NCBI GenBank assembly: GCA_016793635.1
Contig: JAEUMD010000008.1
Coordinates: forward strand, 310,001-374,000
DNA from: Hyphomicrobiaceae bacterium
GTDB taxonomy: Bacteria > Pseudomonadota > Alphaproteobacteria > Rhizobiales > Hyphomicrobiaceae
Reading direction: 5' to 3'
DNA: 64,000 nucleotides
A program made the translations under genes and the position numbers. Positions within the stretch are counted from its first letter, which is position 1. The number at the start of each line of letters is the position of its first letter. The notes under the pieces are model-generated. The model made no database searches. It was not told where the DNA came from and was given only the letters and a program-made list of their open reading frames with translations. Positions 22,511-24,919 of the stretch are shown here, in pieces.

Positions 22511-22765
22511 ACCGATTCAAGCCTTCGCTGCGCGATGTGAACGGGCGGACGGTGATGGTCCGGCCGGTCCAATTGATTTTTATTCGTCGAATTGGCTGAC
22601 GTCGATCTGAGATTTCACGTGCGGCCCACGCTCGTTGCAGATGCAGAGCGCGCCGAAAGACCGAGACGAAAGCGCCGGGCAGACGTTGACCAAGAGGCAT
22701 CGCCTTCCTACGATCCGTCTCCCCAGCAGCAAGGAGTGGCCCGCGGCGAGCCGGCCGACAACGTC

Positions 22766-24061
22766 GTGACCGAGCTGACCATCGTCGCATCCCTCATCCT
22801 GCTCAACGGGATGTTCGCTCTTTCCGAACTCGCCGTGGTTTCCGCTCGCCGCACGCGCCTCAAGGCGATGGCCGCAGCTGGACGCAAGGGTGCCAACAGC
22901 GCACTCGCTCTCGCCTCGGACCCCGGCCGTTTTCTTTCCGCTGTGCAGATCGGAATTACCCTGATCGGCATCGTTAACGGCGCCTATTCGGGAGAAGCGT
23001 TCGGCACGACTGCTGCCGACGCCCTCTCGGCGCTCGGGGTGTCCGAGAGGCTCGCCGGGCCACTCGGCTATGGCGTCGTCATCGCGCTCATCACTTATCT
23101 CTCTGTCATCGTCGGCGAGCTGGTGCCAAAGAACCTCGCGCTCCGCAACGCTGAAGGCATCGCCTGCGCGGTCGCCCCGGCGATGACGCTCTTTTCGCGC
23201 ATCGCCGCACCTGCCGTCTGGCTACTCGATGCCTCGACAAGACTCGTCTTTCGCATGCTTGGCCAGACTACCGAAAGCGAGGCGCGCATCACCGACGAGG
23301 AAATTCGAACTTTGATTTCGGAGGCAGAGTCGGCCGGCGTGATCGAAAAGGGCGAGCGCAAGATGATCGCCGGCGTCATGCGGCTCGCGGACCGCGCTGT
23401 CGTCGGCCTCATGACGCCCCGTTCCGAAGTCGACTGGATCGATGTCACCGCGCCGGATCAGGACATCAAGGCTCGGCTCATCTCCACTACACACTCGCGG
23501 CTTCCGGTCGGAGAGGGTTCGCGAGATGCGCTCATCGGCGTCGTGCAGACCCGCGAGTTGCTCGCGGGCATGCTGTCTGGTCGCCCCTTCGACGTGCGTT
23601 CCGCCATTCGCCATGCGCCGATCATTCCCGAGACGACGGAAGCGCTCGACGTGCTGGCAATCCTGCGCGAGGCCGCCGTCCCGATGGCCCTCATTCACGA
23701 CGAATATGGGCACTTCGAAGGACTGGTGACACCCGCAGACATTCTCGAGGCCATCGCCGGCGTGTTCAAATCGGACACCGAGGGCTTGGACCCGCAGGCG
23801 GTGGAGCGCGACGACGGGTCTTGGCTTCTCTCCGGCGCGATGCAGGCGGACGAGTTACGCGATCTGCTGGGCGTCGCATTACCTGAACCGCGCACTTATG
23901 AGACCGTCGCGGGCTTCATCCTCTCGCAGATGCAGCACTTGCCGAAAACGGGTGAGCACATCGAGAGCAACGGTTGGCGCTTCGAGGTGGTCGACCTCGA
24001 CGGTCGCAGGATCGACAAGGTACTTGCGAGCCGCATCAAACCCGTGCGCCGCCCGCTCTGA
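22766..24061 (+). CDS. CNNM/CorC-type membrane protein (DUF21, CBS pair, CorC_HlyC)
   Basis: A 431-residue integral membrane protein. The DUF21 transmembrane domain (about 1-190) starts ELTIVASLILLNGMFALSELAVVSARRTRLKAM. A paired CBS domain follows (about 200-330), with VGLMTPRSEVDWIDV and HDEYGHFEGLVTPADILEAI, and a CorC_HlyC accessory domain ends the protein. Such proteins are linked to magnesium or other cation efflux; the old name hemolysin is misleading. The GTG at 22766 places the start at the conserved membrane domain. A longer in-frame ATG at 22592 would add 58 non-conserved residues, so the start is uncertain. Confidence 0.88.
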   Translation: MTELTIVASLILLNGMFALSELAVVSARRTRLKAMAAAGRKGANSALALASDPGRFLSAVQIGITLIGIVNGAYSGEAFGTTAADALSALGVSERLAGPLGYGVVIALITYLSVIVGELVPKNLALRNAEGIACAVAPAMTLFSRIAAPAVWLLDASTRLVFRMLGQTTESEARITDEEIRTLISEAESAGVIEKGERKMIAGVMRLADRAVVGLMTPRSEVDWIDVTAPDQDIKARLISTTHSRLPVGEGSRDALIGVVQTRELLAGMLSGRPFDVRSAIRHAPIIPETTEALDVLAILREAAVPMALIHDEYGHFEGLVTPADILEAIAGVFKSDTEGLDPQAVERDDGSWLLSGAMQADELRDLLGVALPEPRTYETVAGFILSQMQHLPKTGEHIESNGWRFEVVDLDGRRIDKVLASRIKPVRRPL

Positions 24062-24373
24062 CGGTCGGTGAACCGACGCGGGGCGGCTTGGTGCAACGGA
24101 AGGGTCTCTCTCAACACTTTCTGTTGCAATCGATCGAGTTGCACTTGAGTTGTGCCGCACGGCCCGGACGAGAGCGCGCAGTGCATCACTTCTCGACCGG
24201 TAAAACCCTGGTTAGGCGATCGCGAAGTTCGCATCCACATGCGGCCTGCATCCGAGCGGACTTCGCTATCTGAAACGCACTAACAACTCCATGACTATAC
24301 TGTCGCTTCCGATTCAGAAGTTCGCCGTTACGCAAGCGGCCAGGTGGTGGCGAACTTGTGAATCGAGACACTC
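24062..24373. repeat. Hairpin-rich intergenic region upstream of the REP-like cluster
   Basis: Between the CorC-type gene and the fixX end, several stem-loops follow one another. A 5-bp stem GTCGG/CCGAC is at 24064-24077. A 15-bp stem with two mismatches, GATCGCGAAGTTCGC (24218-24232), pairs with 24256-24270. A 14-bp stem with one mismatch, TTCAGAAGTTCGCC (24313-24326), pairs with 24349-24362. The last two share GAAGTTCGC. No gene was found. Confidence 0.6.
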
Positions 24374-24540
24374 GTGTTCCGTCTCCGACACTTGGTTCCC
24401 AGTGCGGCATGCGATCGACCAAGTGTCGGAGACGACAAGAACACTAGCTACGCGATGATACTAGTGTTGCTTTTGTCACTAACGCTTGGCAGGCCACCGT
24501 TCAGCAACCGGGAACCAAGCGTTAGTGACGCAACGCTAGC
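24374..24540. repeat. Alternating inverted-repeat cluster (REP/BIME-like)
   Basis: Four related arms of about 25-30 bases alternate in orientation. Arm 1 (24374-24400) holds CGTCTCCGACACTTGGT and pairs perfectly over 17 bp with arm 2 (24418-24434), with GTGTTC/GAACAC extending the stem to 24444. Arm 3 (24461-24490) holds GTCACTAACGCTTGG and pairs perfectly over 15 bp with arm 4 (24515-24529), then CTAGTGTTGC pairs with GCAACGCTAG (one G-T). Arms 2 and 3 can also pair (AACACTAG/CTAGTGTT). Arms 1 and 4 both extend to CTTGGTTCCC. The end of arm 4 contains the fixX stop codon. The layout resembles bacterial interspersed mosaic elements and may also terminate the fix transcript. Confidence 0.8.
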
Positions 24541-24835
24541 CGAACTTGAACAGCACGCCGAAACCGCCGCGTGGGTAGTTCCACTCGATGTCACCGGTCG
24601 CCTCCGCCATCACACGGCAGGTACCGCATTCCATGCAGCCGTCCGGCGTGATCTCGACCTGCCCTGAATCGTTCAGAGCATAGCAGCCCGCGGGGCAGAC
24701 CTTGGTGAGGGCCAGCAACGCGGCCGAGGGGACCTCGTGCGGCATCACCTTGATGTGCGGGCGCCCCGTGTCGACGAGGTAGCGGTTCTGATAGAGCTTG
24801 TCCTCGACCCGGACAGCCTGCTCGGCGATTGCCAT
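24536..24835 (-). CDS. fixX: Ferredoxin-like protein FixX
   Basis: A 99-residue 4Fe-4S ferredoxin-like protein. The cysteine motifs are [10 protein letters not shown] and [12 protein letters not shown], and the C-terminus is [19 protein letters not shown], typical for FixX. It accepts electrons from the FixABC complex, which bifurcates NADH electrons to quinone and to low-potential carriers for nitrogenase. The start at 24835 has GAGGAG upstream. It is the last gene of fixABCX, 84 bases after fixC. Its TAG stop lies inside an inverted-repeat arm. Confidence 0.96.
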
Positions 24836-24919
24836 CGTTGCACTCCTCTTCCCTGTCGATTGAACCAACACGTGAACAGTTATGCGGCGCCCTCATGATC
24901 GGCGGCCGCGTTCGTGCGA

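Follow-up and report, generated by a model that had tools for sequence, protein, structure and literature searches.

What kind of repeat lies at the end of fixX, and how does it come to hold the stop codon of that gene? The locus belongs to a stretch of 64,000 nucleotides from a Hyphomicrobiaceae genome, which was analysed as a whole and is called the window below. A first-pass annotation read the repeat as a mobile REP/BIME element, dispersed by a RAYT transposase, that had supplied the stop codon on insertion. The mobile repeat at the end of fixX is upheld here, and the assignment to REP/BIME with RAYT and the supply of the stop codon are both abandoned. The element is very probably a non-autonomous MITE of the IS630 (Tc1/mariner-like) family, built as a double hairpin and inserting at CTAG.

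The sequence is not unique. As the annotation had suggested, the own genome, a draft of 3.82 Mb in 26 contigs, was searched for copies; BLAST of 24365-24545 found 15 places with 85-100% identity and one further place with the left unit only. The boundaries of the 15 full copies are sharp in the alignment (14 are 169 bp long and one 165 bp), and 11 carry CTAG at both ends, the rest having a one-letter variant at one end. A covariance model, R1, was built from 29 diverse elements, with the window copy left out and one other own copy included. On the own genome R1 gave 46 matches at an E value of 0.01 or less, which correspond to 26 distinct places, both strands matching; 26 may be a lower bound, as 150 of 879 candidates were scored. 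The view of a dispersed two-unit palindromic mobile repeat is thus borne out by the 15 full copies and the 26 model places. These dispersed, sharp-ended copies, as expected of a MITE, contain no transposase gene and are far too short for one. The features discussed below are as follows.

24371-24539, plus strand: element 1, a complete double-hairpin, very probably an IS630-type MITE (15 full genome copies, alignment boundaries, 135.9 bits with R1)
24371-24447, plus strand: left hairpin unit (17-bp perfect inner stem, fold, IS630 end match of the family)
24448-24460, plus strand: 13-nt linker, IHF-like in the reverse complement, decayed in the fixX copy (linker composition in 50 copies)
24461-24539, minus strand: right hairpin unit, inverted relative of the left unit, with its outer arm ending at 24539 (15-bp perfect inner stem, fold, alignment)
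24536-24539, no strand: terminal CTAG, putative insertion site, holding the fixX stop TAG as the complement of 24536-24538 (sequence and ORF; congeners G001 and G002 with the same stop)
24212-24374, plus strand: element 2, older and decayed, of the same superfamily, GAAGTTCGC-stem subgroup (79 bits with R1, E 9e-17, stem-loops)
24536-24871, minus strand: fixX, ferredoxin-like protein (ORF, Pfam PF05187; the name fixX is that of the first-pass annotation)
22592-24061, plus strand: CNNM/CorC_HlyC-type gene, convergent with fixX (ORF, Pfam)

Alignment of the copies places element 1 at 24371-24539 (169 bp), composed of a 77-nt hairpin, the 13-nt linker and a 79-nt hairpin in the opposite orientation. 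Its right end is CTAG and its left end is CTCG, mutated from CTAG. The four alternating arms described earlier exist, within these boundaries and not within 24374-24540 as first drawn. The perfect pairing of arms 1 and 2 over 17 bp and of arms 3 and 4 over 15 bp is likewise confirmed, and the folds of the two hairpins are much more stable than those of shuffled versions (z of -5.8 and -6.4, with 0 of 200 shuffles as good). Two further stem-loops had been described upstream. With filters off, R1 matches 24212-24370 at 79 bits, and therefore both stem-loops are parts of a single decayed element of another subgroup. The whole-genome R1 search places element 2 at 24212-24372/24374 (79.7 bits, E 9e-17), and the filtered search of the window returned element 1 (135.9 bits) without element 2. 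Elements 1 and 2 stand head to tail with CTCG at 24371-24374 common to both, and together they fill part of the gap between the CorC-type gene and fixX.

The family extends well beyond this genome. An own copy found matches in 27 of 100 genomes, the own genome counted, and in the genome collection a core pattern had at least 114 matching stretches. Among 80 matches listed by title, 77 name alphaproteobacteria and three say only Proteobacteria; the titles include Bradyrhizobium, Nitrobacter, Mesorhizobium, Hyphomicrobium, Acidiphilium, Parvularculaceae and others, which we take to be alphaproteobacterial from the genus names. Of 385 genomes drawn evenly over the class, 7 had a match, the own genome among them, and a reversed control pattern gave 0 matches. 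The element is common in some alphaproteobacterial groups and, by the core pattern, absent from most. The 96 full-length elements with CTAGTG and CACTAG ends measure 163-172 bp; they were selected for these ends and for GATTC, and the uniformity of the ends is partly due to this selection.

Pairing is kept while the stems diverge: 98.2% of cells are paired, 31 of 49 pairs show changes in both partners, and on each of five measures the observed value was equalled in 0 of 500 shuffles. The family has inner stems of 15-16 pairs and nine outer pairs, CTAG is paired at both feet, and an unpaired insertion adjoins the linker in both units, with one of 29 rows (L179) deviating on the right. Such strong covariation, the position of the window elements between convergent genes and the conservation of the 13-nt linker beside diverging stems would suit an element that is mainly a selected RNA or DNA structure, such as a bidirectional transcript end, an mRNA-stabilising stem or a methylation or nucleoid site, with its spread being secondary. 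On the other hand, correction between the arms of a palindrome could also keep the pairing, and no Rfam family was found in the window at the gathering threshold. No intrinsic-terminator-like site (a hairpin followed by a T run) was found in 24000-24900 by a scan for loops of 3-8 nt, which would miss hairpins with loops as long as these. As the main explanation, a selected structure is extremely unlikely; it is compatible with an IS630 MITE and does not exclude it.

The arrangement of the units has features in common with REP/BIME and with the CGTC and GTAG repeats. Palindromic units alternate in orientation, lie between genes and are found near gene ends, and CGTC repeats are described as frequent in alphaproteobacteria and as having no known transposase in PMC3733652. 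However, that source gives REP units as 20-40 bp with stems of 5-13 bp and an unpaired tag at one end, whereas the present units are 77-79 nt long, have long stems and end in paired CTAG feet; the combination of short stems and a one-sided, unpaired GTAG or CGTC tag is not seen here. For dispersal by a RAYT, a Y1 tyrosine transposase, no association was found among 60 genomes: Y1_Tnp is absent from the own genome and occurs in 1 of the 12 genomes with the element (the own genome counted) and in 10 of the 48 others. The single Y1 gene of the element-bearing genomes, in G006, does have an element about 150 nt away, but the 11 other Y1 loci that were examined have none. A RAYT-dispersed REP/BIME is thus a very unlikely identity, and by the tested features the element is not a REP/BIME. 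That Y1_Tnp gene of G006 (L199:1501-1857) has one in-frame TAG, and the element lies downstream of it at 2006-2173.

At the level of sequence, the features tested for an IS630-derived MITE are all found. The terminal 22-mers of 19 IS630 elements were compared with 97 distinct outer arms; the set excludes L285 and also L269, which is identical with L240. Twelve of the 19 are bounded by CTAG and have TG, TC or TA ends, and eight of these resemble the outer arms as if sharing terminal inverted repeats: L239, L270, L274 and L275 at both ends, and L240, L271, L276 and L280 at one. The matching ends agree in 16-19 of 22 letters, with a shuffle frequency of 0.0035 or less. No match to the outer arms was found for L241, L246 and L298, and L243 is borderline (0.0055). 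In the element L054, the two arms match the two different ends of IS630 L239 in 19 and 17 of 22 letters. The transposase encoded by L270 contains DDE_3 and helix-turn-helix domains. The seven IS630 with AGC-type ends (L250 with one TG end) did not match the arms of the fixX-type element, and the CTAG-bounded ends of L285 (LHD-71) are unlike the arms. A search for inverted ends, restricted to pairs of CTAG, found ends with at least 13 of 22 letters alike in 9 of 30 IS630 loci. From the later search through element-bearing loci, 20 of 30 IS630 loci were examined for their ends, and in nine of these 20 no CTAG-bounded ends were seen. Two copies of IS630 L239 lie 1172 bp apart in G005:C84 as a head-to-tail tandem with one CTAG in common, like the miniature elements.

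The likeness to IS630 could also be due to chance or to a common target preference, the driver being another CTAG-targeting DDE transposase; IS5 or IS701 would presumably be examples of such a family. A 4-bp duplication of CTAG suits such DDE families as well as a duplication of TA suits IS630, and the own genome is without IS630. The likeness, however, extends 22 bases past CTAG at both ends of four IS630, and shuffles reach it in 0-2 of 2000 trials per end, and we consider another DDE family very unlikely as the source. The search for IS630 was negative both in the own genome (G000, a draft) and in G003, which has many copies of the element, and the driver would have to have been lost, missed in the draft genome or located elsewhere. 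Among the 60 genomes, IS630 (NF033545) occurs in 10 of the 12 with the element and in 28 of the 48 others, and the link is not clear from these numbers. Of 28 additional genomes that were reached by way of loci carrying the element, 26 also have IS630 (16 of them over the cut-off); several of these entries look like one genome taken twice, with identical matches. A preference of IS630 for TA in CTAG is stated in the title of Tenzen and Ohtsubo (1991), as cited in PMC2170065.

The element very probably derived from IS630 can be seen as an insertion where a congener retains the empty site. Empty sites were sought for two of the 15 own copies. At L008 the congener G001 has a single CTAG in a collinear alignment and the own genome has CTAG, 165 bp, CTAG, an insertion at TA within CTAG with duplication of the target, for which a duplication of TA and one of CTAG are equally compatible. 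The L003 site is also empty in G001, yet it reads TCGG, not CTAG. Searching plasmids with the flanks yielded no usable empty site. Tandem elements in L107, L115 and L106 have one CTAG in common, and in L013 the element abuts a second CTAG-ended family with one CTAG common to both. These results suggest that the element moves, lands on CTAG and leaves CTAG at both ends. An integron attC-like site was also considered and was dropped as a candidate once the CTAG ends and the IS630 ends had appeared.

The second family (CTAGAGC..., in a 64-10-64 layout) is a double hairpin of the same design with different arms. It occurs at L013:1664-1801, in the flanks of L006 and L012, and in L181 to the left of the fixX match. 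The AGC-type IS630 L245, L253 and L255, three of the seven, match this family, which was represented in the comparison by one element (two arms), and L241 resembles it weakly (0.02). One plasmid record matched it, also weakly.

The stop codon of fixX does lie within the repeat, as first annotated, the CTAG at 24536-24539 containing it on the minus strand. That the element supplied it is contradicted by the congeners. In G002, where R1 finds no element at this place, fixX stops after the same residue, likewise with TAG; in G001 this fixX stop is directly adjoined by a CTAGAGC-type repeat of about 60 nt. Therefore the stop was present before the insertion, and the CTAG that overlaps it would be the landing site. 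A parallel is found beside L008, where DctM ends in an identical GCC TAG in G001 without the element. Pfam-recognised genes have their TAG stop inside the terminal CTAG at 5 of the 15 own copies, namely fixX, a short-chain dehydrogenase (L006), DctM (L008), UDP-glucose dehydrogenase (L014) and YacG (L010); beside these, four further open frames of 82-124 codons end likewise, as frames only. Over 188 element ends, TAG is in frame in 28 of the 47 end-reaching open frames of at least 250 codons (one third expected by chance, p 2e-4). When the comparison is with the remaining CTAG sites of these loci, a modest enrichment is left (28 of 188 sides versus 26 of 309, p 0.027). Similarly, the stop of an RraA-family gene on an Agrobacterium plasmid coincides with the end of a full element. 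Since CTAG overlaps TAG stops and would be regenerated on insertion, the element can occupy gene ends with the protein unchanged, fixX being one such place. The neat placement at gene ends would thereby be explained without benefit to the host. The transposase gene of IS630 L270 (L270:1402-2514) itself ends with TAG inside the terminal CTAG of its element.

How IS630 might act on such an element is suggested by the spacing of the arms. The two outer arms would serve as the terminal inverted repeats recognised by an IS630 transposase, and the outer arm of the left unit, from 24371, is a candidate for one of them; each hairpin may be one IS end folded back on itself. In 14 ends from eight IS630, a gapless fit is best for the outer arms in all 14, and a gap of 3-4 nt fits better for the inner arms in all 14. 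Ungapped scores of inner arms still reach 18 in two cases, which makes the spacing rule a preference. The insertion of 3-4 nt in the inner arms may break the spacing of the repeat, and the transposase would then favour the outer ends.

The central linker is a candidate for an IHF-like bend that would join the two ends of so short an element. Its consensus in 50 copies taken from BLAST or the model is CAA-NNNN-ATGATT; a length of 13 nt was assumed, and the flanking CTAG letters on both sides scored at least 6 of 8 in all 50. The IHF consensus is given as WATCAANNNNTTR in PMC5896051 and PMC3281130. The reverse complement of the linker agrees with it at 8 of 9 positions in 32 of the 50 copies and at 7 of 9 in 14, one position being missed nearly always. 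For the scoring, R, a variant of the printed consensus, was used at the sixth place. Background 13-mers reach at least eight positions in 0.03% of cases. The copies share ancestry, and the IHF-like linker counts as one observation, though conserved while the stems diverged. Binding of IHF at the linker and mobilisation by an IS630 transposase would fit these sequence patterns. Methylation by CcrM (GANTC) was considered as the cause of the linker conservation and is weakened, the A of the GANTC being kept in only 38 of 50 copies and its free position in 49 of 50; the same counts speak against the linker as a selected methylation site.

Several known repeats resemble the element in part. CIR (CcrM-associated intergenic repeats; Chen and Shapiro, 2003) occur in Caulobacter and other alphaproteobacteria, and the review by Delihas (PMC2229807) gives their mobiliser as unknown. 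Like the element, CIR are intergenic and have two stem-loop arms with a linker, TA termini and, in many copies, GANTC. They differ in length, about 110 bp against 163-172 bp, and, compared by description, in the position of GANTC, which is at or in the terminal loop in CIR and is found as GATTC in the linker here. RUP of Streptococcus pneumoniae, described as an IS630-derived MITE in the same review, also has no transposase gene, has IS630-like ends, inserts at TA and exists in many dispersed copies. It is, however, about 107 bp long with one end-to-end stem-loop, whereas the element has a hairpin at each end and a central linker and, unlike RUP, appears to carry two different IS ends. Br-REP1 and Br-REP2 of Bradyrhizobium are likewise palindromic repeats at gene 3' ends in Hyphomicrobiales, but their consensus as printed in PMC5082802 differs by eye from the element arms. 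Searches of the open-licence PMC full text brought up no paper recognised as describing this element family. We tentatively propose, as a possibility that is on balance doubtful, that the double-hairpin repeats of alphaproteobacteria (the present family, the CTAGAGC family and perhaps CIR, RIME and Bru-RS) form one class of IS630 MITEs, in which each of the two IS ends forms a hairpin, the inner ends are disabled by the 3-4 nt spacer, host IHF preassembles the paired ends at a central IHF-like bend, and CTAG targeting steers insertions to stop codons. For one repeat superfamily of this sort, the present results point to an enzyme family, a target (CTAG) and a rule of end recognition.

Copies of the element are also found on mobile DNA. 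With the L125 copy as query, 17 plasmid records matched, all from genera that, judging by their names, we take to be alphaproteobacterial. No plasmid match was obtained with an own copy or the L078 copy as query, nor any phage match with the L120 copy, and a search for lone arms around the ORFs of 116 named and viral loci gave nothing useful. Two IMG/VR viral contigs carry a match to the core pattern (L178:2607-2631 and L179:4078-4102), for which a host-to-host route or mis-sorted host DNA is possible. Plasmids of Agrobacterium vitis have a single hairpin unit of this type where a MerR-type gene ends (L235:3999-4083 and L236:2999-3081). At L094:167-424, three CTAG-bounded hairpin units are chained, with other arms and another linker.
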